Of a stretch of DNA of 64,000 nt, positions 22,839 to 62,560 are shown one piece after another. The notes under the pieces are model-generated. The model was not told where the DNA came from. It did not search any database and saw only the letters and a list, made by a program, of their open reading frames with translations. The first letter of the stretch is position 1. The number at the start of each line of letters is the position of its first letter. Source of the DNA: Aspidapion aeneum (Eukaryota; Arthropoda; Insecta; Coleoptera; Brentidae); assembly GCA_963576565.1 (NCBI GenBank), contig OY755048.1, positions 1,742,501 through 1,806,500 of the forward strand, given 5' to 3'. Both the position numbers and the translations under genes were made by a program.

Positions 22839-32428
<9,590 letters not shown>

Positions 32429-32475: not shown

Positions 32476-32932
32476 AATAAATATATATAAAAAATAAAAA
32501 AATTGCAAACATTATAAAGACAAAAAAAAGTTAAAACAAAACGAAACACTACCGATATCTTAGGTAATATTTTGTTCAGTAAAAGAACAAAATCAAAATT
32601 TGTTTTGACATTCATTCTTATGTTTTGTAACTTTTTGCTGCTCGTCTCATTTACTGTTTTCTAACAGTTATTTACTTTTGTGTTTCGCATTTTGACTAGT
32701 TGAAATATTTTTAAAATGACTATAAATATTTTGCCTCAAACCAGTTCACATTAGATATTATTATTATAATAGTCTTTCCAAAATAATTTCCCTTATAACT
32801 GAAAAAAAAAACGCTGAAATTATTTGGTAAAGATGCTGTGGAACATTTTTTAGTTCAAGTTTATTAATTTGTACTAGATATTACTTTGTTTAATGAAATT
32901 TGGTTTGTGGATTATTTCTTTGGGATAATAAA
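32476..32932 (+). terminator. pAbp polyadenylation signals
   Basis: Two AATAAA hexamers follow the stop codon: 32476-32481 (48 bp after it) and 32927-32932 (about 500 bp after it). The second is followed by TTGTATTCAT and a T-rich run (32950-32961), a more typical cleavage context. Alternative 3' ends are possible. Confidence 0.55.
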
Positions 32933-32947
32933 ACTTGTATTCATAAA

Positions 32948-33200
32948 AGTTTACTTTTTATTTTCTATCCACTTGTCTCCTGTTATAAGTTTGTCATAAA
33001 AATTTAAAAAATATAATAACAATAATATACATATAATAATTTAATGGCGGATAAAAACGCAATAAGCGTTAATCTGGCCTGAAAGGCAGAAGTGCTGTCG
33101 TAGGTCATGGATTAGTTTATTTATTTTTATTTGTAATCAATCTTTTTATTGATCGATTTGTATAGCAGTTTATTTTCGCCTGCTCTTCTAGTTTCTCTCG
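32948..33200. other. pAbp 3' flank, nothing recognised
   Basis: AT-rich sequence downstream of the likely poly(A) site, with no ORF or repeat seen. Confidence 0.4.
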
Positions 33201-33304
33201 TATCTCGGTAGATGGCGCTTCTTGCGAAAGTTTTCTCACTATTTACATAGGATTAGAGACAAAACCGTCTAATTTACTTCGCAAGAATGTTACATTGACC
33301 AAGC

Positions 33305-33352
33305 AGTGTTCTGAGGAGTCCTATAAGGACGAAACACTTAACTGTCAACACT
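33305..33352 (+). ncRNA. Type I hammerhead ribozyme
   Basis: All conserved core elements occur in the correct order. Helix I 5' strand AGTGTT (33305-33310); core CTGAGGA (33311-33317, matching CUGANGA); helix II GTCC/GGAC (33318-33321 and 33327-33330) closing loop TATAA; core GAAA (33331-33334); helix III ACA/TGT (33334-33336 and 33343-33345) with loop CTTAAC; cleavage triplet GTC, cut expected after C33346; helix I 3' strand AACACT (33347-33352), perfectly complementary to the 5' strand. No core position is substituted. Very short helix III type I hammerheads are typical of Penelope-like retroelements and retrozymes. A 10-bp inverted pair TTCTTGCGAA/TTCGCAAGAA lies just upstream (about 33211 and 33279). 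Confidence 0.85.
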
Positions 33353-33628
33353 TATTAGAGGTCCATTAGATCTTAGACCCCCCCGTTAAGCTTTCGAGCT
33401 ACCCACGGAAAAATATGAGAGAAACAAAAACTCCTTTTTACCCGATTAGCCACAAAACTTGTTTGATTTTTAAATTCACGGGTACTAAATTTCACGTTTG
33501 TTAATATAATATTAGTTGACTTTGTGGAAACAAAAATTATTTTCACAAATATTGACTGTAAATTGGGAGCAGCATGAGTTATTTTGTCTTGCAGTTAAGT
33601 CAATCAAATTTATATCTAATCACATATT

Positions 33629-34676: not shown

Positions 34677-35058
34677 TTATTTTATACTTTTAACAGCTCT
34701 TTGAGCAGCATCATCCAAATTTTCAGCAGTCTTAATATCTAAGCCTGATTCCTTAATGATCCTTCTGGCCTCTATTGCATTTGTACCTTCTAACCTCACA
34801 ATCAACGGTATTTTGAGGTCCATATTTTTAAGAGCTCCAACTATACCATTAGCAATAGTGGCACAATTGACTATACCACCAAATACATTAACTAGAATAG
34901 CTTTTACTGAAGGATCAGAAGTAATAATGTTAAATGCCGCTCGAACTTGGTCCTCTTTGACTGCTCCTCCTACATCCAAGAAATTGGCTGGTTCACCACC
35001 ATATAGCTTGATTATGTCCATTGTAGCCATAGCAAGGCCAGCACCATTTACCAAACAC
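34677..35058 (-). CDS. Suclg2: Suclg2 coding exon 4
   Basis: Residues 288-414, the CoA-ligase domain from [14 protein letters not shown] to ...[10 protein letters not shown] and TAA. Acceptor TTTTTAG at 35059-35065. Confidence 0.95.
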
Positions 35059-38000
35059 CTAAAAACATAATTTATTTAAATATTCCATTGAATTTATAGA
35101 CCTTTTTAAAAGGAAAAAAATTATAAGTTTACACTTGAAAACGGTTAGAGATACTTACTAACCGAAACGTTGTGTTTAAAATAAATACAGACAATGGAAG
35201 TCCAAAATTTTGTTTCAAGGACTAACATATTTTATTTTGATTTTCAACCTAAACAACATTTTCACCCAAAAATGACCAAGGTTGGAGGCCAGTTTAAAAA
35301 AAATAGGGGTAATATATTTCGTCCATTCGTTTATTTTTAGGTGAAAAAATAAACATCACTATGAAAATATTTGTCAGAAAATGCGTCAATGAAAATCAAT
35401 AATAACACTATGAGATGGAATTTGCTATTTTTTTAACCAGCTTAAATTCTGTTTTCTGGCAAATTTTTTCCTAGTGATGTTTTATTTTACACCATTGTTG
35501 AAAAAAAACTACTTTCAGAACTTGGGCACTTTTGGTTTTAGTTTATTACCCAATATTTCCAGTCATACCAATGTAGTTCAAGTTATATTTGGCAGCTTCT
35601 ACTTCTCTGGGGTCACTTTCTGTAACATCCTCCATGGAAAATATATCTTTTTGTCTAAACTTGGCATTGTCATCAAAATTTAGTTTAGCATCAACTGAAA
35701 TTACTTTTCCATCATCAGTTTCAACAAGAGGGTTAATTTCAATTTGAGTGGCATCAACTGCTACAAAAAGATTCCACATTTTCTTTAATTCTTGAGCAGC
35801 TTTATTCTTTAGATCGCCTTTAAAGTCAAGAAATTCTGCTAACTCATTTGCAGCGTTATCTGTAAGGCCTTCTAAAATGTCAATTGGGATCTTTTTTAGG
35901 AGATGTGGAGTTTTTTCAGCCACTGCTTCAATATCCATACCTCCTGCAGGCGAAACAAGTATAACAGGACCATTCATTTGTCGATCCATGGCAATGCAGA
36001 CATATGTTTCTCTTTTAATATTTACACTTTCAGCAATCATGATTTTTTTTACTGGAATACCTTCCTTTGGTGTTTGCTTAGTGATAAGATTGAAACCCAA
36101 CATTTGTTTAATAAGTTTGGGAATTTCCTCTCTTTTTTCAGTAATGTGGACACCACCTTTAAATCCATTATTAAAATGACCTTTACCTCTTCCACCAGCC
36201 AAAATTTGGGCCTTAATGACATATTCTTTAGCAGCTAAAACATAACTTGGTATGATATACTTTATAAATAAAAGTTTGAAGTTTAAAAATAAACTTCTTT
36301 ATAAGTAAAGTAGGTGTGATTTGAATGTTAAATCCTAGGGCCATAAGTATTTTTTTTAAAATTAGATCTAAAATTTCGAGTTATCATATGAAATCAATAA
36401 CCAAAAAATGAGGGTTTGGACCATAAAGGGGTTGCAAATTACAAAATTAAAATTTTTTCTGATAAGTAGTTTTTGTTTTAATTAAATTTTGGCTAAAATG
36501 TACACTTAAAAAATTAAGAGATCTCAAGAACTACTTACAGCAGAGTAGTGTTATGATATGGCTTATTTAAAAGGTCTTTAAAATACTTTTTGAATATGGT
36601 ATTATGGACATAAGTATTTTTTTAAAATTAAATCTTAAATTTATTTATCATATGAAATCAATAACCAAAAAATGGGGGTTTGGCAGACCATAAAGGTGTT
36701 ACAAATGACAAAATGAAAAAATTTTCTGATAAGTAGTTTTTGTTTAATTAAATATTAGCTAAAACATACACTAAAAAAAAATTAAGAAGATATCTCAAGA
36801 AGTAGTGTTATAATATGGCTTATTTCAAAGGTTTTTAAAATACTTTTTGAATATGGTATTATATTTTTCTTTTACATAATAAACAAAACTCAAATTTTTG
36901 AAAAAAAAATAATTTTTTATAAAATTATTTTAATTTTTTTCAAATAAATATAATTTTTTTCCTTAATGTTTTAGCAGAAACGAGTATATTATGGTTTTAG
37001 CAAGATTCTTATAAAATTTCAAGATAGAGAAATGATGGGTTCATGAAATAAAAAAATGTTGACCATAAAAATCAATGGAAAAATAGTAGGTATAGGAAAA
37101 GAATCAATTTAAAAAAATGCACAAATTAGATATTTTAGAGAAAAAATAACTAAATTACTTTAATCATTGTGACACATTATGTTGCATTTTTTAGCAAGAT
37201 TCTCACTAAATTTCAAGATGGAGATATTTTATAAACAATGTTAATAAAAATCCATGGAAAAATAGTATAGGAAAAGAATATATTTTTTGAAAAAATAAAC
37301 AAAACATATATTTTAGAGAAAAAATAACCAAATTATTTTAATCATTGTGACACATTAGCCAAAATGAATACAAAAAACATATCAAAAAAATACCTATTTG
37401 TATTTTTTATGATTTCATATTTTTCCTTAAAGTAATAGCCAACACTGGTAAACTTAACACTGTTATTTTTTCTCTAAAATGTCTGTTTTGTGTATTTTAT
37501 TATGAAAATTATAATTTTCTCACTCTTTTTTCCATGTATTTTTATTGGTAACATATTTTTTTTCAACATGAACCCATTTCTCTATCCTGATATTTGGTTA
37601 GATGTTGCTAAAAAAATAATTTATTTTGATTTTCAACAAAAATTGATCATGTGATACCTCATTGGAAATGTAGTAAAGACCTTTTAAATAAGCCCTATAT
37701 CACTATCCTGGATTAGGTAGTTCTTGAGATAGGTATCTTAAAGTCAAATTGGCAGTTTCTTTTATTTTCAAAATTTAATTAAAAAAACCCATATAACAAA
37801 ATTTTGAAATGTGGGATTTTTTATCCTATTTATGGGTAGAATAAATGTACCAAAAATTATCAAAATCGGTGAGATGGTTTGCCAAATCCCTGGTTGATTT
37901 GGTATGAAATGATGCCTACCAAAACTAATAAATGTCTATAGGCAGTAAACACTTACAAAATTTGTTAAGCTGACTGGAGCCAGTTTCATCCACCATACAA

Positions 38001-39324: not shown

Positions 39325-42300
39325 CTAAAAAAAATCATTTATTAAACGGCATGCAACAAGGAGCTTGTTATCAATGTTTTCGAGGAGAAACAGAAAAAAA
39401 AACCGGACCGAACCTTTATAGGAAACTTACCCGAAATTAATAAAATCAATCCACAAATTCTTGACGTAGTTGCTCAATCGAGCTTCATTTTTTGTAAATC
39501 TACGGGTTTCAGTGTCCTTAAACATTGTGGGGCCAAAAAGTAGAAACAAATCAGTAGTTATCGACTCTTCTGTTGAATTTAGACGAAGGTCAGCTTCATC
39601 CATAAAATACACAAATATGGGTTGGACATAGGAACTTAAATATGAAAGTTGCAAATAATGTGGAGCTTCAACTTTTGCTTCGAATTCCATAGTTCGCATT
39701 TCATCGAATAATTTAGCATTTTCGTTTGACAAAAAATATTTCCAGTTGATAAGTTCCAGTAACAAATCAAAACTTTCTGAGTCTGTCACTCGGTACAGCT
39801 TTAAAATTTCTGGTATTTTAAATTTTTCCAAAAAATATTGGAAGTGTTGGGAGTCCTGATTTAAGTCAAAGTATGTAATTGATTTTGCGACGCCAGATAG
39901 CAGAGGTACTTGGGCAAATTGACTTTGTTGGAAAGCCTTTGTAGGTTCCATAGGTAAGTATCTGTTATTTTCTGACAAAAAACTATCTACTACTGGTAGA
40001 AACATATCTTGATGATCAGTGTCAACATTCTGGGAGTACTCTCTGAGCGCTTTTAAAATATTATCCGTGGTTTTGGCTCTCAGGCATTTAAAATAGGCAT
40101 TAGGATGGTAGACACTACATCCTAAAAGAGTTAAAAGCTGCTTTGAGGCAGCTATCGGGTCATTCTGAGTTTGCCAAGGGCTAACTGCACTGCCTGAAGA
40201 AATTATTGCTCTTTGAAAAAGACCTACAACAAAACAAACATGAGGTCGTGAAGAGAGCATATCAGAGGTGTCGCTTATAAATTCAAAAAAATCTATAAAA
40301 ATTAAAGGGTTTTTTGAGGGGGAGAGGGAGCGAAAGGTAGGAGGACAAATTGTTAAAATCTTATTTCGTCTAAAGTGGTCGTGTAAAGTGATTTCTAGGT
40401 AATTTAGTATTCTAAACCAAAATAAATATTAATTGAGTCAATACTGTCAAAATGATATGTCAAAAACTGACAACTTAATCTGTTTTTACGCCAGGAATTA
40501 TTAAAAATACCTGACCAAGCCTAATTTAATAAAATTTGATTACTTAAATAAAAGTGGAATCAAATTTCTAGAATTTTTAATTTTTAACATAAATTGCCAA
40601 CTCTTGGGCACCAAACTCGGCACCAAAGCATACACTTTTAATAAAATTACATAATTGCATCCTGTTTGAGATTGGTTGTCAGTGTGATAATTAAATAGAT
40701 ATTTGAGAAATAATGATATTATACATTATGTGAAAAATATTTTTTTTTTAATTAAAATTATTGTATTTCAAACTTACTTAAAAAGAAAAAGTCATAAGAC
40801 AGCTTTTATTTATATATAAAAATTTGTATCGATTGCTGGTACTGTATACTATCTGTATAATTATTTTTTTACTATAACTCACCTACGCGTCGTTTAATTT
40901 TGTTCTTGTTCCACTAATTTAGTTGGCGGAAAAAATATTAACATTTTTCCTAATTACTTAACAGACCTTGTAGTTTTGATAATAACAAAGTTAACAATAT
41001 AAATTTATATAAGTATAAATATAAAGTCTCTAACCTACATAGGGATTAACAGTTTACAAAAGAATCGCCCTGTATTTTCTTACAATTACAAAGCTAAGTA
41101 AAACAATGTACACCGTATAACAAGGGCGTTCTTCTAGTTATAACAAGTAGTAAAATTAAGAAGGTATCTTAAACTGCATAAGCGGTATAAACCAAAGTTT
41201 GAGACTACTACTTTTTACATGATTTTTTAAATATCAACATGTCTCTTTCAGCATATTAGAAAATTACAAAACTTAAATTTTTGTCTCATATCATGTAATA
41301 AGCCGACAAACTGTGTCAAGTTTCATTGCAAAATTCCTATTAACGCAGTAGCTACAATAAATAATGTAAAAAAAACAGTAAAAATGTCAGCAAAGTTGTT
41401 GTTGCCCAGTATAGTGAAACCTCTCCTTGCAGACACCTCTATTAAGCGGATACTCCCTTTAGGAGGACAAATTTGTTGGAACCAAGCTTTTCCCAATTTT
41501 TTTACATGTAAAATTCACTCCTATAACTGGACACTCTAATAACCTGACTTCTGACAACGGGACGGAGCGCTGCACGACATGTTCATAAATATTGTGTAGT
41601 ATGTTGGCAACAACGCACTTTTCATCTGGGGAATTACCTCTTTGCGTTTTAATGCGGAAACTAAATAGTTCTGTCGTATTTACAACATATTTTATTCGGC
41701 GGGAATGCTGAGTTTTATTTTTATTGTTCAGTTGGGTAGGGAACGTCCGTAAATTACGTAAGTAAAAAAATCAGGATTTTTGACCCCCCCCTCCCACCTG
41801 GTAATTCCTGAGAATACTTGAAAATTCTATGACATATCTTGAGAATCTTTAAAATCCGCTTCACAATTCGTGGAAATCTTTAAAAAACCATTAGAAAATC
41901 TTAAGTTGTTCCTGAAATTCTTTGGAAATCCCCTGGTAATTCCTGGAAATATTTAGAAATCCCATAGTAATTCCTGAGAATCTTTGGAAATCCTATGGAA
42001 GCCCTGGAAATCTTTGGAAATTCCATGATAATTCATGAGAATCTTTAAAATTCCCCGGAGTCTTTGGTAATTCCTGGAAATTTTTAAAAAACCTATTGAA
42101 ATCCTATGGCAATTCCTGAGAATCTTTGAAATTTCCATGACAATTTCTGAAAATCTTTGAAAAGTCCACAGTTAATCCTGGATATTTTTAATACTTATAG
42201 CAAATCCCAAGAACCTTCGGAAATCCTATTGCAATTCCTCAGAATCTTAGAAATTCTCCTAACAACAAAAACTCATGGCAATTTTCTGAAAATCTTTGCA

Positions 42301-44670
42301 AAGCACATACTAAATTTTGTAGTTCTTTTAAAAGCCCATTCTAGAATCTTTGCAAATCAGATAGTAGACCTGGAATTTTTTGTAAATATCCTATCCTGAA
42401 AATCTTTAAAACTTCCATGTTATTTCCTGTGAATCTTTCGAAATCCGAGGACAATTCCTATTGCAGACCTAAGAATCTTTGCAAATCAGATAGTACTCCT
42501 GAAAAATCTTTGTAAATATCAGTTTTTAAAATTCCAATTTAATATCTTTAAAAAACCTGACAATTCCTTAAATCCTACGGAAATTCTTGAGAATCTTTAA
42601 GATTCCCATGACAATTTCTGAGAATCTTTGGAAAGCCCATGGTAAATCTTAGAAATCCTAGAAAATTCCATTTTAATTCCTATCTATCTTTAAATATTCC
42701 ATGATAATTCCAGGAAATGTTTGGAAAATCTATAGCAATTCCTATGACAATTTTTGTGATTCTTTGGAAAACCAAGGCAATTTATGGCAATTCCTGGAAA
42801 TCAGTGAAAATCCTCAATCAGTTGGCTTCAGTTTCCTATCTTACAGTGTAAGTGGTGACCTTAAAAAAACGTATTTTTCTCCTAAACTATCAAAACACAA
42901 AGAAGCACCACCATCAAAAGTTAATTTTTGATCAAGAAATTTTACTTGTTTAATGCTGATTTTATTACCTCTCTATGATGCGTATTTAATATTAATAAAA
43001 AAACATGGTATGTTTTTAAAAACTCACCTGCAGTTCTTGGAGAGATCATGTGAAAAGCAACACTGGTGGCTCCAGCAGAGTGGCCAAAAAGTGTTATTTT
43101 ACCAGGATCGCCACCGAACTGTTTAATATTGGATTTCACCCAAAGTATTGCAAAATACTGATCCAAAAGTCCCAAGTTGCCCCTGGCCTCGCCATTTCCA
43201 AGGCAAAAAAATCCAAATATGTTTAGTCTGTAATTAACGCTGACTATCACTACTCCTTCTGTAGCAAATTCTTGTGTTGATATAGGTGGAGTTGTGCTCG
43301 TATAAAAATTAAATCCCTCGAAGAAAATCACCACAGGAAGTAAGCTATAGAGGTTTGCCCCAGGATAAGCATTTTGGAGTGGGACAGGCGACCAGATATT
43401 AAGGAACAAGCAATCTTCTTGGCCAGAGATACCACCATTGGAAGTTAATTGAGCACAATTTACACCGAATTCAGTGGCCTTGTAAGTGCCATTCCATCCT
43501 GGGTGTTTTTCAGGGGGTAAGAATCTATGGGTGCCTACTGGAGGAACTGCATAAGGTATTCCCAAAAAACTGTTGACTATTTTGTTCGATGTCTGAGTGA
43601 CAACAGTGACCTAAAATAATAAAACAATATATATATTTATCGGTTTCACAACGTTCTACGTCTTCCGATACCCAATCTCCACTCGTTTCTGTTTGCCCAT
43701 AATTGATCATCTAGGCCTCTTATTCTTATTTCACTGTCTATTCCTTCTCTCCAGCTTCTCCTTGGCCGTCCTCGTTTTCTTCGGCCAGTTGGTTTCCATT
43801 GTAGTATTTGTTTAGGTAGTCTTTCATCATTCATTCTTTGTACATGTCCGTACCACACCAGTTGCTTTGTTCTTATATCATCCACTAAAGTACGTTCCCC
43901 CACTGTCATAATTTCTCTTATTCTTTGATTTGTAACTCTCTCTTTTTGATTTCCCTGCTGCTCTTCTCCAATAGTCCATCTCCGTAGCGGAAAGCATTTT
44001 TTCTGTTCTATCCTTGATTGGCCATACTTCTGAGCCGTATGTAATAATACTTTTTACAATGGTGTTATATATAAGCTTTTTGTTATGTTTTGATATACTT
44101 TGGTCCCAAATTATTCCATTTAATAAAGTTATTGCTTTTCTTCCTTGTACGTTTCTATCTTTTATAGCTTTGTCTAGTGTTCCGTCAGCTGTAATTTTTA
44201 GACCCAAGTATTTATACTCATCACAGGACTGAATTCGCTGCCCAGTATTTAAGATTAGATTCTGTTTCATTCCACCGATACACATATACTCTGTCTTATT
44301 GAGATTAACCTCTAGTCCCCACTTATTGTGCTCTTCTATTAGTTCTCGTGTCATATATTCGAGGTCATCATAATCCTGAGCCACTACTATCTGATCATCG
44401 GCGAAACATAAAGTATACAAACTACCTGCAAAAAAATCAAGGTGCTCCAATAAATTGTTTTTAAAAGTTAATTTTAGAGTATTTGTCGTAGGTTTTTGGA
44501 AAAACCGTTAATTACGTTGATCTTAGCTATCTTTAATTTTTTTTAGCATATCTACGTACCCCTTCTATAGTTCCTTGTTGAATTCTAACCAAAGGTTTTT
44601 TTTCTTGCCACCTTTGACAGTAACCATATTTAATAACAAACACATCCACTAAAATAGCCACAAAAAACAT
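38976..44670 (-). CDS. Esterase-like type I membrane protein, probable pseudoenzyme, complete 4-exon gene
   Basis: Exons 44670-44560, 43610-43028, 40223-39431 and 39324-38976 (minus) join in frame to 611 residues. Signal peptide 1-18 (MFFVAILVDVFVIKYGYC), then VRIQQGTIEG and LGIPYAVPPVG, the usual start of carboxylesterase/cholinesterase folds, GQEDCLFLNIWSP (family signature) and the nucleophile elbow FGHSAGATSV. However, the oxyanion-hole motif HGGGF is replaced by FEGFNF, the acid position of G-V-x-x-x-E-G reads GVAKSITY, and the histidine position before LFG reads SITTDLFLLFG. A single hydrophobic helix near the C-terminus (FSLIALVAALLVILAICIFL) and a short basic tail KKRLRERDTEINFDY follow. 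Family knowledge suggests a cholinesterase-like surface protein (as neuroligin or gliotactin are) rather than a hydrolase; the exact orthologue is not recognised. Confidence 0.85.
39431..40223 (-). CDS. Esterase-like gene, coding exon 3
   Basis: Residues 232-495, from LFQRAIISSGSAVSPWQ to NLWIDFINFG. Acceptor TTGTTGTAG, donor TTCGG|GTAAGT. Covers the region where the acid and histidine of the triad would be. Confidence 0.95.
40224..41779. other. Esterase intron 2, left part
   Basis: AT-rich sequence without genes. A GTATAGTGAAACCTCTCC stretch (about 41408), followed by TTAAGCGGATACTCCC, looks like the edge of a decayed pogo/Tigger-like element, but no inverted partner was found. Confidence 0.35.
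41780..42830. repeat. About 1 kb of degenerate 31-bp minisatellite in esterase intron 2
   Basis: Roughly thirty diverged units of the form 'gaatctttggaaatcccatggcaattcctga', 30-33 bp each. The best-ordered run is at 41910-42060. Unit edges vary and some are fused or deleted, so the array is old. ORFs here are products of the repeat. Confidence 0.75.
43028..43610 (-). CDS. Esterase-like gene, coding exon 2
   Basis: Residues 38-231, from VTVVTQTSNKIVNSFLGIPY through EDCLFLN, the altered oxyanion loop and GHSAGA to ISPRTAG. Acceptor TTATTTTAG, donor GCAG|GTGAGT. Confidence 0.95.
43635..44430 (-). pseudogene. LINE fragment in esterase intron 1 (RT palm to C-terminus)
   Basis: Minus-strand reading from about 44430: SLYTLCFADDQIVVAQDYDD with the catalytic FADD, KWGLEVNLNKTEYMCIGG, YKYLGLKITADGTLDKAIKD, then after one frameshift near 43905 TKQLVWYGHVQRMNDERLPK, GRRKRGRPRRSWREGID and a C-terminal GIGRRRTL. 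Only the part from the FADD box onward is present (5' truncated). Same orientation as the host gene. Confidence 0.85.
44560..44670 (-). CDS. Esterase-like gene, coding exon 1
   Basis: Thirty-seven codons from the ATG at 44670, giving a hydrophobic signal peptide and then KKPLVRIQQGTIEG. Donor GGG|GTACGT. Exon 2 joins in phase 0 to give IEGVTVVTQTSNK, the expected start of an esterase fold. Confidence 0.8.
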
Positions 44671-59578: not shown

Positions 59579-59739
59579 ACTTATACTTTATATATTTTGT
59601 CGGGTTCTGGGGGGTAATTACTCCCTTTACCCACCCCCATCCGTAGAACCGCCAATGCCCTTACGACATATTGAATTTTTCCTAATACCTGACCTGACCT
59701 AAACAATACATATGACCTTTAACCGAGGGGTCATCAGCT

Positions 59740-60105
59740 TTCAACAGTACTGTACAAATTTCACAACAGTACCCGACAGTACCACGACAGGATCCAACAG
59801 TACTCGACAGTACACGACAGTACTCAACAGTACTCGACAGTACCACGACAGGACCCAAGAGTACTCGACAGTACACGACAGTACCCAACAGTACTCGACA
59901 GTACACGATAGGACCCAACAGTACCCGACAGTACACGACAGTACCCAACAGTACACGACAGGACCCAACAGTACACGACAGTACCCAACAGTACTCGACA
60001 GTACACGACAGGACCCAACAGTACTCGACAGTACACGACAGTACCCAACAGTACACGACAGGACGCAACAGTACACGATAGAATCCAACAGTACTCGACA
60101 CAACC
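59740..60105. repeat. 10-bp-unit minisatellite, block 1
   Basis: About 36 units of ACAGTACNCR or ACAGGACCCA (for example ACAGTACTCG, ACAGTACACG, ACAGTACCCA) in near-perfect 10-bp register. Period breaks occur at a few extra bases (59780, 59840). Confidence 0.9.
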
Positions 60106-60143
60106 CTCTTATCCGAAACAGTGGCGTAGATACAAAAAGACAG

Positions 60144-60475
60144 GATGACCTTTTTTTTTTTTTTTTTGGTCGTAAGTTTTTTGAGTGCGCGCTAAGCGTG
60201 GCGCGGGTCCCCAAAAATGATGACCTTTTTTTTTTTTTTTTTTTAGTCGCCAGTGTTTGGAGGATGCGCTAAGGCCCTATCGGCCTTTCCGGATGACCTT
60301 GTTTTGGTCGCAAGAGTTGTGAGCGCGGCGCGGTTCCCCAAAGATGATGACCTTTTTTTTTTTTTTTTGGTCGCAAGATTTGTGAGCGCGGTGCGGTTCC
60401 CCAAAGCTGATGACTTTTTTTTTTTTTTGGTCGCAAGATTTGTGAGGGCGCGCTTTGTCCCTGTCGGACCCCCCC
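60144..60475. repeat. Five-unit array of T-run/GC-rich blocks
   Basis: Units begin GATGACC/T at 60144, 60219, 60292, 60346 and 60409. Each is followed by a T run (up to 20), GGTCGCAAG-like, TTGTGAGCGCG-like and GGTTCCCCAAA-like segments. Unit length is 54-75 bp. The unit start GATGACC repeats the end of the element's own terminal repeat. Confidence 0.8.
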
Positions 60476-60483
60476 AAGGCACG

Positions 60484-60675
60484 ACGACAGTACTCAAGAG
60501 GACCCAACAGTACACCGACAGGACCCGACAGTACACGACAGTACCCAACAGTACACCGACAGGACCCAACAGTACTCGACAATACACGACAGTACCCAAC
60601 AGTACTCGACAGTACACGACAGTACCCAACAGTACTCAACAGGACCCAACAGTACACGTCAGGACCCAAGTCCTG
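60484..60675. repeat. 10-bp-unit minisatellite, block 2
   Basis: The same ACAGTACNCR/ACAGGACCCA units as block 1, about 19 units, in the same orientation. Confidence 0.85.
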
Positions 60676-60724
60676 TTGGACGCTGTACAAAATTTTAGGG
60701 TGCCGATGACCCCTCGCCTTTAAC

Positions 60725-62560
60725 GCTCCTAAGGAGAATAGATTCATACGTTTTAACTCGAGTGTGAAGAATCGTTTTTAAAACTAATAAAACGATATTT
60801 TAAAAATATCAGGTCTTTATCAAAGTCACTGCATATCTCCATGAGATTTTTTTAAATCTAGTTCAAGACCCACTTTAATACCGGCCACTTAACATTATGC
60901 CTTTTATAGAAATTAAGCATTAAGATGTTTTGTATTGCACACACAAACATACATACAGTGAGGGCTGATACAGGGAGGTGAACAGGGCAGTGCCCTCCCA
61001 AAACTAGACAGCAAACAGTATTTTTAATTGATATATTTAAACAAAGTTAAATCTTCCCTTACGAAATGATCGTCTAGTTCTTTTTATTATCTATGGTTAA
61101 CATCAAGTGATTAATTGGGTGAACTACAAGCCGGCAGCGCCGCGCGGGGCAAGATTTCAATTTCACTCGATTTTCTGAGGGTATGGGTAGATGTTCTCGA
61201 GTGGGGGCGGGAGGAATGTGTGTTTTAGTTGAAGTGGGCCGTCATTATCGTGCGTAAACGTCCGTTGCCCTTCTACATGATGTCGGTTCTATCCTTAGCG
61301 AAGACGTAGAGTTTGTTTTGATTTGGGCTATGTCAGTAGTAAAAAGCATTGCCGGTGGCGTGTCATTGTTTTTGTTATCGTTTGTTTATAAAATGGAAAT
61401 AAATACCGTCGATTACATAATTAACTGTACAAATTTAAATACGTTGACATATGAACTTCAATTACTAATAAAATCTTTAGGGTCACATAGACCGGACCTA
61501 AAAATGAACTAAAATTTTAGTGTAAGTAATGCGGGGTGTTCCATAAAAACCAATAATAGAAAATTTAATAAAAAATTATACCATGCTAAAAACTGGTTGT
61601 GCAGGTTGTGAAAAAATAAATGCCTTTTTTTTGCTTTATTTGTCTTGTTATGAACAATCCACGTGCAAAGGGAATCTGTGATATCAAGCGCTTTAGTGAA
61701 AAGTGTAAAAGACACAAATTAAGTGGTATTCATTTAAATAACCACATATAATTTTCTATGCTAGGCAAGATCTTAGCATTAGTTGACTAATATTAGGTGC
61801 CAATTGAATAGTGCCTATAGACAAAACATTACCGAACATAATGAAAATGTGACAAAAATTAGACATATACTTAGTAGGTTAATAGACTGTTTAAAATTCT
61901 GTGTGATTTTTGAGGTTGCTCTACGGGGCCATAAAAAAAGAAAGACGAACGGACTCTATCTATAAACAAATAAACTAAAAACTACACCAAGTAGCTGTTT
62001 GTTTGGAAAATACTAAAATAAAAATGTTTCGCTAATTTTTTTTATCTCATTTTTCATGCAATTAAAATTTCTGCCCCCCCCCAATTTATAACGTCACCAG
62101 CCGCCACTGCATACATATACTCTCTCCAATAACAAAAAAAATCAGTAAATACTTCATGTAGCACAGTTTTATATTAGAACATAAAACAGATCTTTTTCTA
62201 AAGAGGCATATTTGAATTGTTTCAGATTCCACACACATAGTTGATTGTAAATTGAAGCTTATCTTGGGGTTAATATGGACGCTTATCTTACATTATTCAA
62301 TATCAATGCCCATATGGGAAGGAGAAGACGATATGACCAATGGAGGAACCGAATCTACACCAAAGCAAAGGTAAAACCACGTAAAACGCTCTCTGTAAGA
62401 CATTCTGGTTAAACAAAATCTATATGTTTGGGGCGGATTCATTATTAAGGTTTTTTGTAAAGTAAGAAACTACAGCGTTTCTCCTAGAAAAAGAAAAATC
62501 ACTAACTTTTCAGTGGTTTATTAGAAAAAAATATTTGCCTAACAAAATTTGAAAACAACC
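60725..62560. other. Filamin intron with a small GC-richer patch
   Basis: Mostly AT-rich. From 61130 to 61400 CpG is locally frequent (GCCGGCAGCGCCGCGCGG at about 61131), followed by a 39-codon frame starting MEINTVDYIINCTN (61393-61512). This might be the start of a lost transposon or gene exon, but nothing confirms it. Confidence 0.3.

Follow-up and report, generated by a model that had tools for sequence, protein, structure and literature searches.

RESULTS

A complete type I hammerhead in the window

What kind of element has left a hammerhead ribozyme between two genes of this beetle, and which enzyme moved it there? The motif lies in the window, by which we mean the whole 64-kb stretch of DNA that was analyzed, and is described by two features.

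33305-33352, + strand: type I hammerhead ribozyme, core and helices read from the sequence, expected cut after 33346
33334-33345, + strand: helix III and its loop, ACACTTAACTGT; compared with the family form ACAGTTAACTGT, the C at 33337 abolishes both the fourth pair and the palindrome

The preliminary description had read this locus as a complete type I hammerhead, and that reading holds base by base. The core consists of CTGAGGA (33311-33317), GAAA (33331-33334) and the cleavage triplet GTC (33344-33346), and around it lie helix I (AGTGTT/AACACT, 33305-33310 with 33347-33352, a perfect 6 bp with strands 36 nt apart, just as had been stated), helix II (GTCCT/AGGAC, 33318-33322 with 33326-33330, 5 bp) and helix III (ACA/TGT, 33334-33336 with 33343-33345, 3 bp). 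The invariant core and the three helices in type I arrangement by which a sequence belongs to Rfam RF00163 are all present, and the cut predicted earlier, after 33346, agrees with the position of the triplet.

That such a motif would very seldom arise by accident in 64 kb, as was also claimed, is supported by simulation. A strict descriptor (Watson-Crick helices of at least 6, 5 and 3 bp), which matches 33305-33352 in the window, found nothing in 1.6 Gb of simulated order-3 Markov sequence, and with G-U pairs allowed there were two matches in 1.6 Gb, or 1.6e-4 per 64-kb window; across the window this looser descriptor has 33305-33352 as its sole match on the + strand and none on the - strand. 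The bare core pattern is weak as evidence, since 18 of 100 shuffled versions of the window contain it, and the remaining CTGANGA...GAAA stretches of the window were rejected as hammerheads because their helices do not form.

Two results would nevertheless suit a hammerhead-like motif that arose by chance. The Rfam Hammerhead_1 model, although covered over its whole length, gives 33305-33352 a score of 23.0 bits (E of 0.0091, computed over 1,201 bases and 4227 families), which does not reach the gathering score of 34, and in a gathering-level Rfam scan of the window the hammerhead is absent. By the letter, a covariance score below threshold is what the preliminary description had set down as counting against it. 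In addition, the bare sequence prefers another fold: in single-sequence folding, with energies that leave out tertiary contacts, the active structure lies at -7.9 kcal/mol against a minimum of -10.7 kcal/mol for the window copy and at -9.8 against -13.5 kcal/mol for the family form, and these calculated energies do not speak for strong hammerhead activity. The covariance shortfall is not decisive, because it is outweighed by the related copies in the genome, where the family core recurs in 16,049 places. These thousands of copies, with the empty strict simulation, rule out a chance motif, to which we assign a vanishingly small probability. As read from its bases, 33305-33352 is a genuine ribozyme fold.

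The preliminary description had also seen here the 3-bp helix III of a small type I hammerhead. Three pairs are indeed what this copy has, but it is damaged, and most copies have four: position 15.4, the C at 33337, is G in 38 of 42 aligned copies, and the family-form helix III has four pairs around a TTAA loop. Being palindromic, this form can pair between two molecules. Judged against the aligned copies, the window copy has a helix III shortened by damage, which is no family trait, and with one pair lost it probably cleaves poorly.

The ribozyme belongs to an abundant non-coding repeat

Around the hammerhead, a longer repeat can be delimited in the window.

33041-33507, + strand: retrozyme-like repeat copy, ~90% of one ~512-nt unit, 84% identical to an array-internal unit of locus L061
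33219-33228 and 33278-33287, + strand: inverted pair TTCTTGCGAA / TTCGCAAGAA, inside the repeat
33031-33038, + strand: candidate target-site duplication on the left, ATATAATA, which recurs at 33504-33511; the surrounding DNA is AT-rich and the assignment tentative

The repeat is located between a pAbp-like frame (+ strand, ending at 32428 and followed by AATAAA at 32927-32932) and Suclg2-like frames (- strand, 34677-36298); the names pAbp and Suclg2 come from the preliminary description and presumably fit these neighbors. The inverted pair, which had been suggested to be part of the hammerhead's element, does fall within it; a repeat search with a 12-nt minimum did not report the pair. Relative to the array unit the window copy is 5'-truncated, and its 3' end (33503-33507) coincides with the distal of two end sites described below. 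No further copy of this first family, nor any of a second family or of a Penelope-like element (PLE), was found in the 64-kb window.

Elsewhere in the window we observed the remains of a reverse transcriptase (RT) at 43646-44507 (- strand), which we take to be of non-LTR retrotransposon type and which has similar frames in locus L001; a repetitive stretch at 59682-60777 whose two strands both carry long, overlapping frames, probably a minisatellite; a tRNA gene at 25372-25444 (52.9 bits in Rfam); and a carboxylesterase-like frame at 39427-40428, for which there were two matches at E ≤ 1e-5, both from beetles (Exocentrus adspersus and Brassicogethes aeneus, 48-49% identity).

A search of the genome for related copies had been proposed, and it found them in great number. 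In the host assembly (1.286 Gb, 149 contigs), of which the window is C11:1742501-1806500, the 36-nt family ribozyme core with up to 3 mismatches accounts for the 16,049 places mentioned above (7,995 + 8,054), a count that takes in fragments and damaged copies, and the reversed pattern gave no match across the whole genome at the same tolerance. Prokaryote contigs held no match to the family core. On viral contigs, 29 stretches (L075-L103) carry the exact core CTGANGAGTCCNNNAAGGACGAAAC, which is looser than the family core. Searching with window 33040-33480 gave at least 60 places (40 of 5,958 candidates scored), the best copy other than the query itself being 92% identical. When the genome was searched with Rfam Hammerhead_1, at least one place lay above the cut-off (74 of 155,298 candidates scored); it is a different hammerhead, yet its locus, L001, carries an 88% copy of window 33207-33466.

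The unit is ~512 nt long and non-coding. Copies are solitary or stand in head-to-tail arrays with a period of 497-512, where units adjoin directly with no ORF between them, and monomers and fragments lie on many contigs. These comparisons place the hammerhead in a single, decayed copy of a non-coding repeat that is very abundant in this genome. Across 42 copies, which were chosen on overall similarity and not on the ribozyme, conservation is 0.970 in the ribozyme (49 nt) and 0.956 in the rest, and the uninterrupted core is kept in 27 and missing in 15. With the ribozyme barely more conserved than its surroundings, single copies appear to decay almost neutrally. A diverged subfamily (a nine-unit majority, L037, L038, L045 and L051) is 76% like the ruler unit used for comparison, and the two are identical over a 75-nt block (r317-391) that comprises the ribozyme and 35 nt downstream of it, the second-longest stretch of identity being 23 nt, although the comparison is biased because L037, L038, L045 and L051 were fetched for an exact core. 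The core is broken by one base in 4 of 5 counted L051 units.

The tandem arrays, and the near-equal conservation of ribozyme and remainder within copies, would also suit ordinary satellite DNA spread by unequal exchange, with the hammerhead as a passenger; the pDo500 hammerhead sequence of Dolichopoda cave crickets (PMC2808323), set beside the first family here by its description, is described in the available part of that paper as satellite DNA. We regard this explanation as very improbable for the beetle repeat, given the monomers and fragments on many contigs and, as detailed in the next section, the recurring 3' ends, the inverted 5' junctions and some flank repeats.

The repeat has instead the features of a retrozyme, namely a non-coding unit, one type I hammerhead and tandem as well as dispersed copies. 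Type I hammerhead retrozymes of metazoa have been published, with insects among the named groups (PMC7229834), and the first family resembles these non-LTR retrozymes, as the accessible part of the paper presents them (Cervera and de la Pena 2020), in being non-coding, in having a GC content below 50% and one type I hammerhead per unit, and in its thousands of tandem and dispersed copies. It differs in its unit of ~512 nt, in that its insertion ends have been mapped and in being known here from DNA alone. The same source reports units of 150-450 bp and ~170-400 nt, and the period of 497-512 falls outside 150-450 bp, which is a reported range and no criterion of mechanism.

Most insertions end at two sites downstream of the cleavage site

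The 3' ends of other copies define two zones, given here in window coordinates.

33459-33493, + strand: proximal end zone, +113 to +147 from the cleavage site (indels not counted), with 36 of 88 3' ends
33498-33518, + strand: distal end zone, +152 to +172 (indels not counted), with 32 of 88 3' ends; the window copy ends at +157 to +161

We used the natural array of L061, in which the region of interest is internal, as a ruler and delimited 74 insertions in 56 of the 61 loci L001-L061; five overlapping loci were omitted, and the window's own copy (L002) was counted in. Outer 3' ends numbered 95, and after 7 that reached the end of the ruler were dropped, 88 were measurable. Of these, 68 fall at two sites with a spacing of ~34 nt, between 113 and 172 nt past the cleavage site, and are most frequent near +125 and +160. 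The 20 ends outside both zones include six at +190 to +200, ~34 nt past the distal site, which may mark a further end site or may result from the alignment. The cleavage site itself, with 6 nt to either side, is free of these 88 ends, and 5' ends do not cluster immediately downstream of it (1 of 53 against 1.2 expected, with 17 of the 53 cut short by the ruler). With L017 as the ruler (67 insertions, 63 measurable 3' ends), the range +118 to +136 held 21 ends and the range +144 to +169 held 22, and both peaks appeared again with L014 (66 insertions), a ruler that clips because L014 itself ends near the distal site.

Almost a third of the insertions (22 of 74 with the L061 ruler) are head-to-head composites, in which both outer ends are 3' ends and 5'-truncated arms meet; the other two rulers gave 25 of 67 and 25 of 66. 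One proximal and one distal end are combined in 11 of the 22 composites, mildly above chance (7.1 expected by shuffling, P 0.037). Identical flanks of 7-12 nt border 7 of 14 well-delimited composites, those with both ends at the sites, where 1.3 would be expected, and across 67 insertions there is a weak excess of flank repeats of at least 7 nt (6 versus 3.2 expected). The flanks are slightly richer in A+T (0.71-0.72) than DNA 500 nt away (0.67).

This anatomy recalls that of PLEs. For Poseidon, a PLE of Anolis, the available text of PMC11167929 reports that the RT begins synthesis at two neighboring internal sites, which delimit a 30-40-bp tail, that both DNA strands are cut and extended, and that AT-rich DNA is favored; the start lies 111-118 bp into the ORF and the hammerhead cut at 26, which by subtraction places the start about 85-92 nt past the cut. 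Penelope elements of Adineta, according to the accessible part of PMC3846280, have inverted pseudo-LTRs (pLTRs), one of them with an optional 31-bp tail at its 3' end, mostly head-to-head junctions and, in some copies, target-site duplications of 8-10 bp. The first family shares with the PLEs of these two sources the two 3'-end sites ~34 nt apart, which bound a tail of ~30-40 nt, the inverted copies joined head to head and the position of the hammerhead upstream of the 3' end; short target-site duplications in some copies are a possible further parallel. It is unlike them in its ORF-less unit and in the 4-bp helix III of most copies, where PLE hammerheads are described as minimal in the available part of PMC7761336. 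From the insertion ends we infer that the moving enzyme is of Penelope type.

The tail, the inverted composites and the position of the hammerhead upstream of the 3' end are at the same time traits of PLE pLTRs, and the repeat might therefore be a pLTR, solo or in tandem, of an autonomous PLE yet to be found. On this point the coding sequences near the copies are informative.

Penelope-like coding sequences and their relation to the repeat

With the L074 frame (described below) and five PLE proteins as tblastn queries, and loci taken with ~1.5 kb on each side, so that an ORF farther away would be missed, PLE coding sequence was found neither in the window nor in the 12 second-family loci L062-L073. 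Decayed PLE remnants are present in 2 of the 61 first-family loci (L034 and L053), and in neither does the unit enclose an ORF. At L034 (1150-3026) a retrozyme composite stands between two PLE pieces that share one orientation, as if it had inserted into an old PLE; at L053 (637-1331) a GIY-YIG-type PLE piece lies ~430 nt downstream of a retrozyme copy. Inspection by eye of the 45 longest frames in 28 loci recognized no PLE ORF. The proposed search for a Penelope RT next to copies thus turned up decayed remnants in two loci, but none is bounded by a unit and none lies in the window. An ORF for RT and GIY-YIG within the unit, as in a PLE, was not found, and since the inspected copies bound no PLE RT, the repeat looks non-autonomous from its sequence.

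GIY-YIG profile matches occur in at least 147 places of the host genome (150 of 633 candidates scored), and one of them is a PLE with an open frame.

C10:42329600-42334900: PLE (L074, L104) with an open 912-aa RT/GIY-YIG frame

Scanned in parts, this frame scores 26.8 bits for GIY-YIG (cut-off 22.6) and 29.6 bits for RVT_1, equal to the cut-off; a Pfam scan of the undivided frame named neither. Its relatives at E ≤ 1e-10 number at least 157 among 8,000 scored, and those with names come mostly from insects such as Diabrotica and Coccinella, and relatives are annotated with PF00078, PF28514 and PF26215; a search of solved structures with the frame gave no useful match. Read by eye, a minimal hammerhead-like motif stands upstream of the ORF and again near the 3' end, which lies 99 nt past the cut site of the element's own motif, and on the 5' side a 99% inverted copy of 1.2 kb amounts to another pLTR, with a hammerhead-like motif of its own. 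An Rfam scan of L074 did not detect the motif. Compared with this one PLE, the first-family unit has no significant sequence similarity, and the flanks of the L074 ORF are unrelated to it.

The pLTR explanation thus has in its favor, beside the shared anatomy, the decayed coding remnants in L034 and L053. Against it, array units adjoin without an ORF, the remnants are confined to 2 of 61 loci viewed with ~1.5 kb per side and include no ORF enclosed by a unit, and the L074 PLE has unrelated flanks and, by eye, a minimal hammerhead-like motif. We consider it unlikely, and prefer to see in the repeat a retrozyme that is moved in trans.

A second retrozyme-like family

The hammerhead above the Rfam cut-off in L001 belongs to another repeat.

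L062-L073, and L001 1411-1709 (- strand): second retrozyme-like family, 333-nt unit, type I hammerhead CTGATGTGTCCCAAAGAGGACGAAACACCGGTGTC

Its hammerhead in L001 scores 40.6 bits, and the L001 copy is ~34 nt short of a full unit. Like the first family, it has a type I hammerhead, tandem units, a palindromic helix III (ACACCGGTGT) and a sharp 3' end downstream of the cut; unlike it, the unit is 333 nt, and the sequence is unrelated save for short matches. Homology stops at or near CCCTATTATTTTA in 10 loci viewed by eye, with variants in L063, L066 and L071, and in the two measurable loci the 3' end is 96 nt (L001) and 94 nt (L069) from the cut. Two further observations concern both families. 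Twelve identical bases, TTCGAGCTACCC, occur at window 33393-33404, after the first-family ribozyme, and at L001 1495-1506, right after the second-family cut, which may be chance; and a first-family-type hammerhead variant, CTGAAGAGTCCCTTAAGGACGAAACAGTTAACTGTC, lies near a second-family copy at L070 2389 (- strand).

DISCUSSION

The preliminary description had proposed that the hammerhead marks an unannotated retroelement of Penelope or retrozyme kind, and this is supported by the number of core matches, the arrays and the Penelope-like insertion ends. In our judgment the repeat is quite likely a metazoan retrozyme, an abundant retroelement whose ~512-nt unit is non-coding and non-autonomous and is moved in trans by a Penelope-type RT/GIY-YIG protein.

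On this reading, the hammerhead would cut transcripts of tandem copies once per unit, and the products would be ligated into circles, as in the published retrozyme model. A Penelope-type RT/GIY-YIG protein, provided in trans, would then copy an RNA that includes the cut site, either such a circle or an uncut multimer, and would begin cDNA at one or the other of two internal positions that are ~34 nt from each other and about 120-165 nt past the cut. Starts from one or both target strands would yield the monomers, partial tandems and head-to-head inverted composites whose anatomy is described above, and the window copy would have ended at the distal site and been 5'-truncated. The 3' ends are found past the cut and copies continue across it, which requires a template that contains the cut site; our data are compatible both with the circle of the retrozyme model (PMC7229834) and with an uncut multimer, which according to the available text of PMC11167929 a lizard PLE enzyme used in vitro. 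As the retrozyme and the L074 PLE share no significant sequence, the helper is not pinned to L074.

Type I hammerhead retrozymes, including those of insects, and PLEs as their proposed helpers are already published. In the accessible part of a 2020 review (PMC7761336), PLEs and Terminons are named as likely helpers, and metazoan repeats are described as lacking a conserved motif that would reveal the helper. Among the papers listed in a search by title and the start of abstracts, in which subscription literature is thinly covered, none dealt with beetle retrozymes or with PLE-type ends of retrozymes. What is added here is evidence that bears on the helper. With somewhat less assurance than for the beetle repeat itself, we lean toward the view that animal retrozymes are moved by Penelope-type enzymes, in which case the hammerhead and the stretch that follows it, together the 75-nt block, may act as a signal for borrowing the PLE machinery.

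Hammerheads are common in animal genomes, and what moves their carriers has so far been a guess. With the end pattern the proposal of a PLE helper becomes testable: a single assembly offers ~16,000 copies of the ribozyme, insertions whose ends are sharply placed and also a PLE whose frame is open, and the guess could now be put to the test by counting and by biochemistry.
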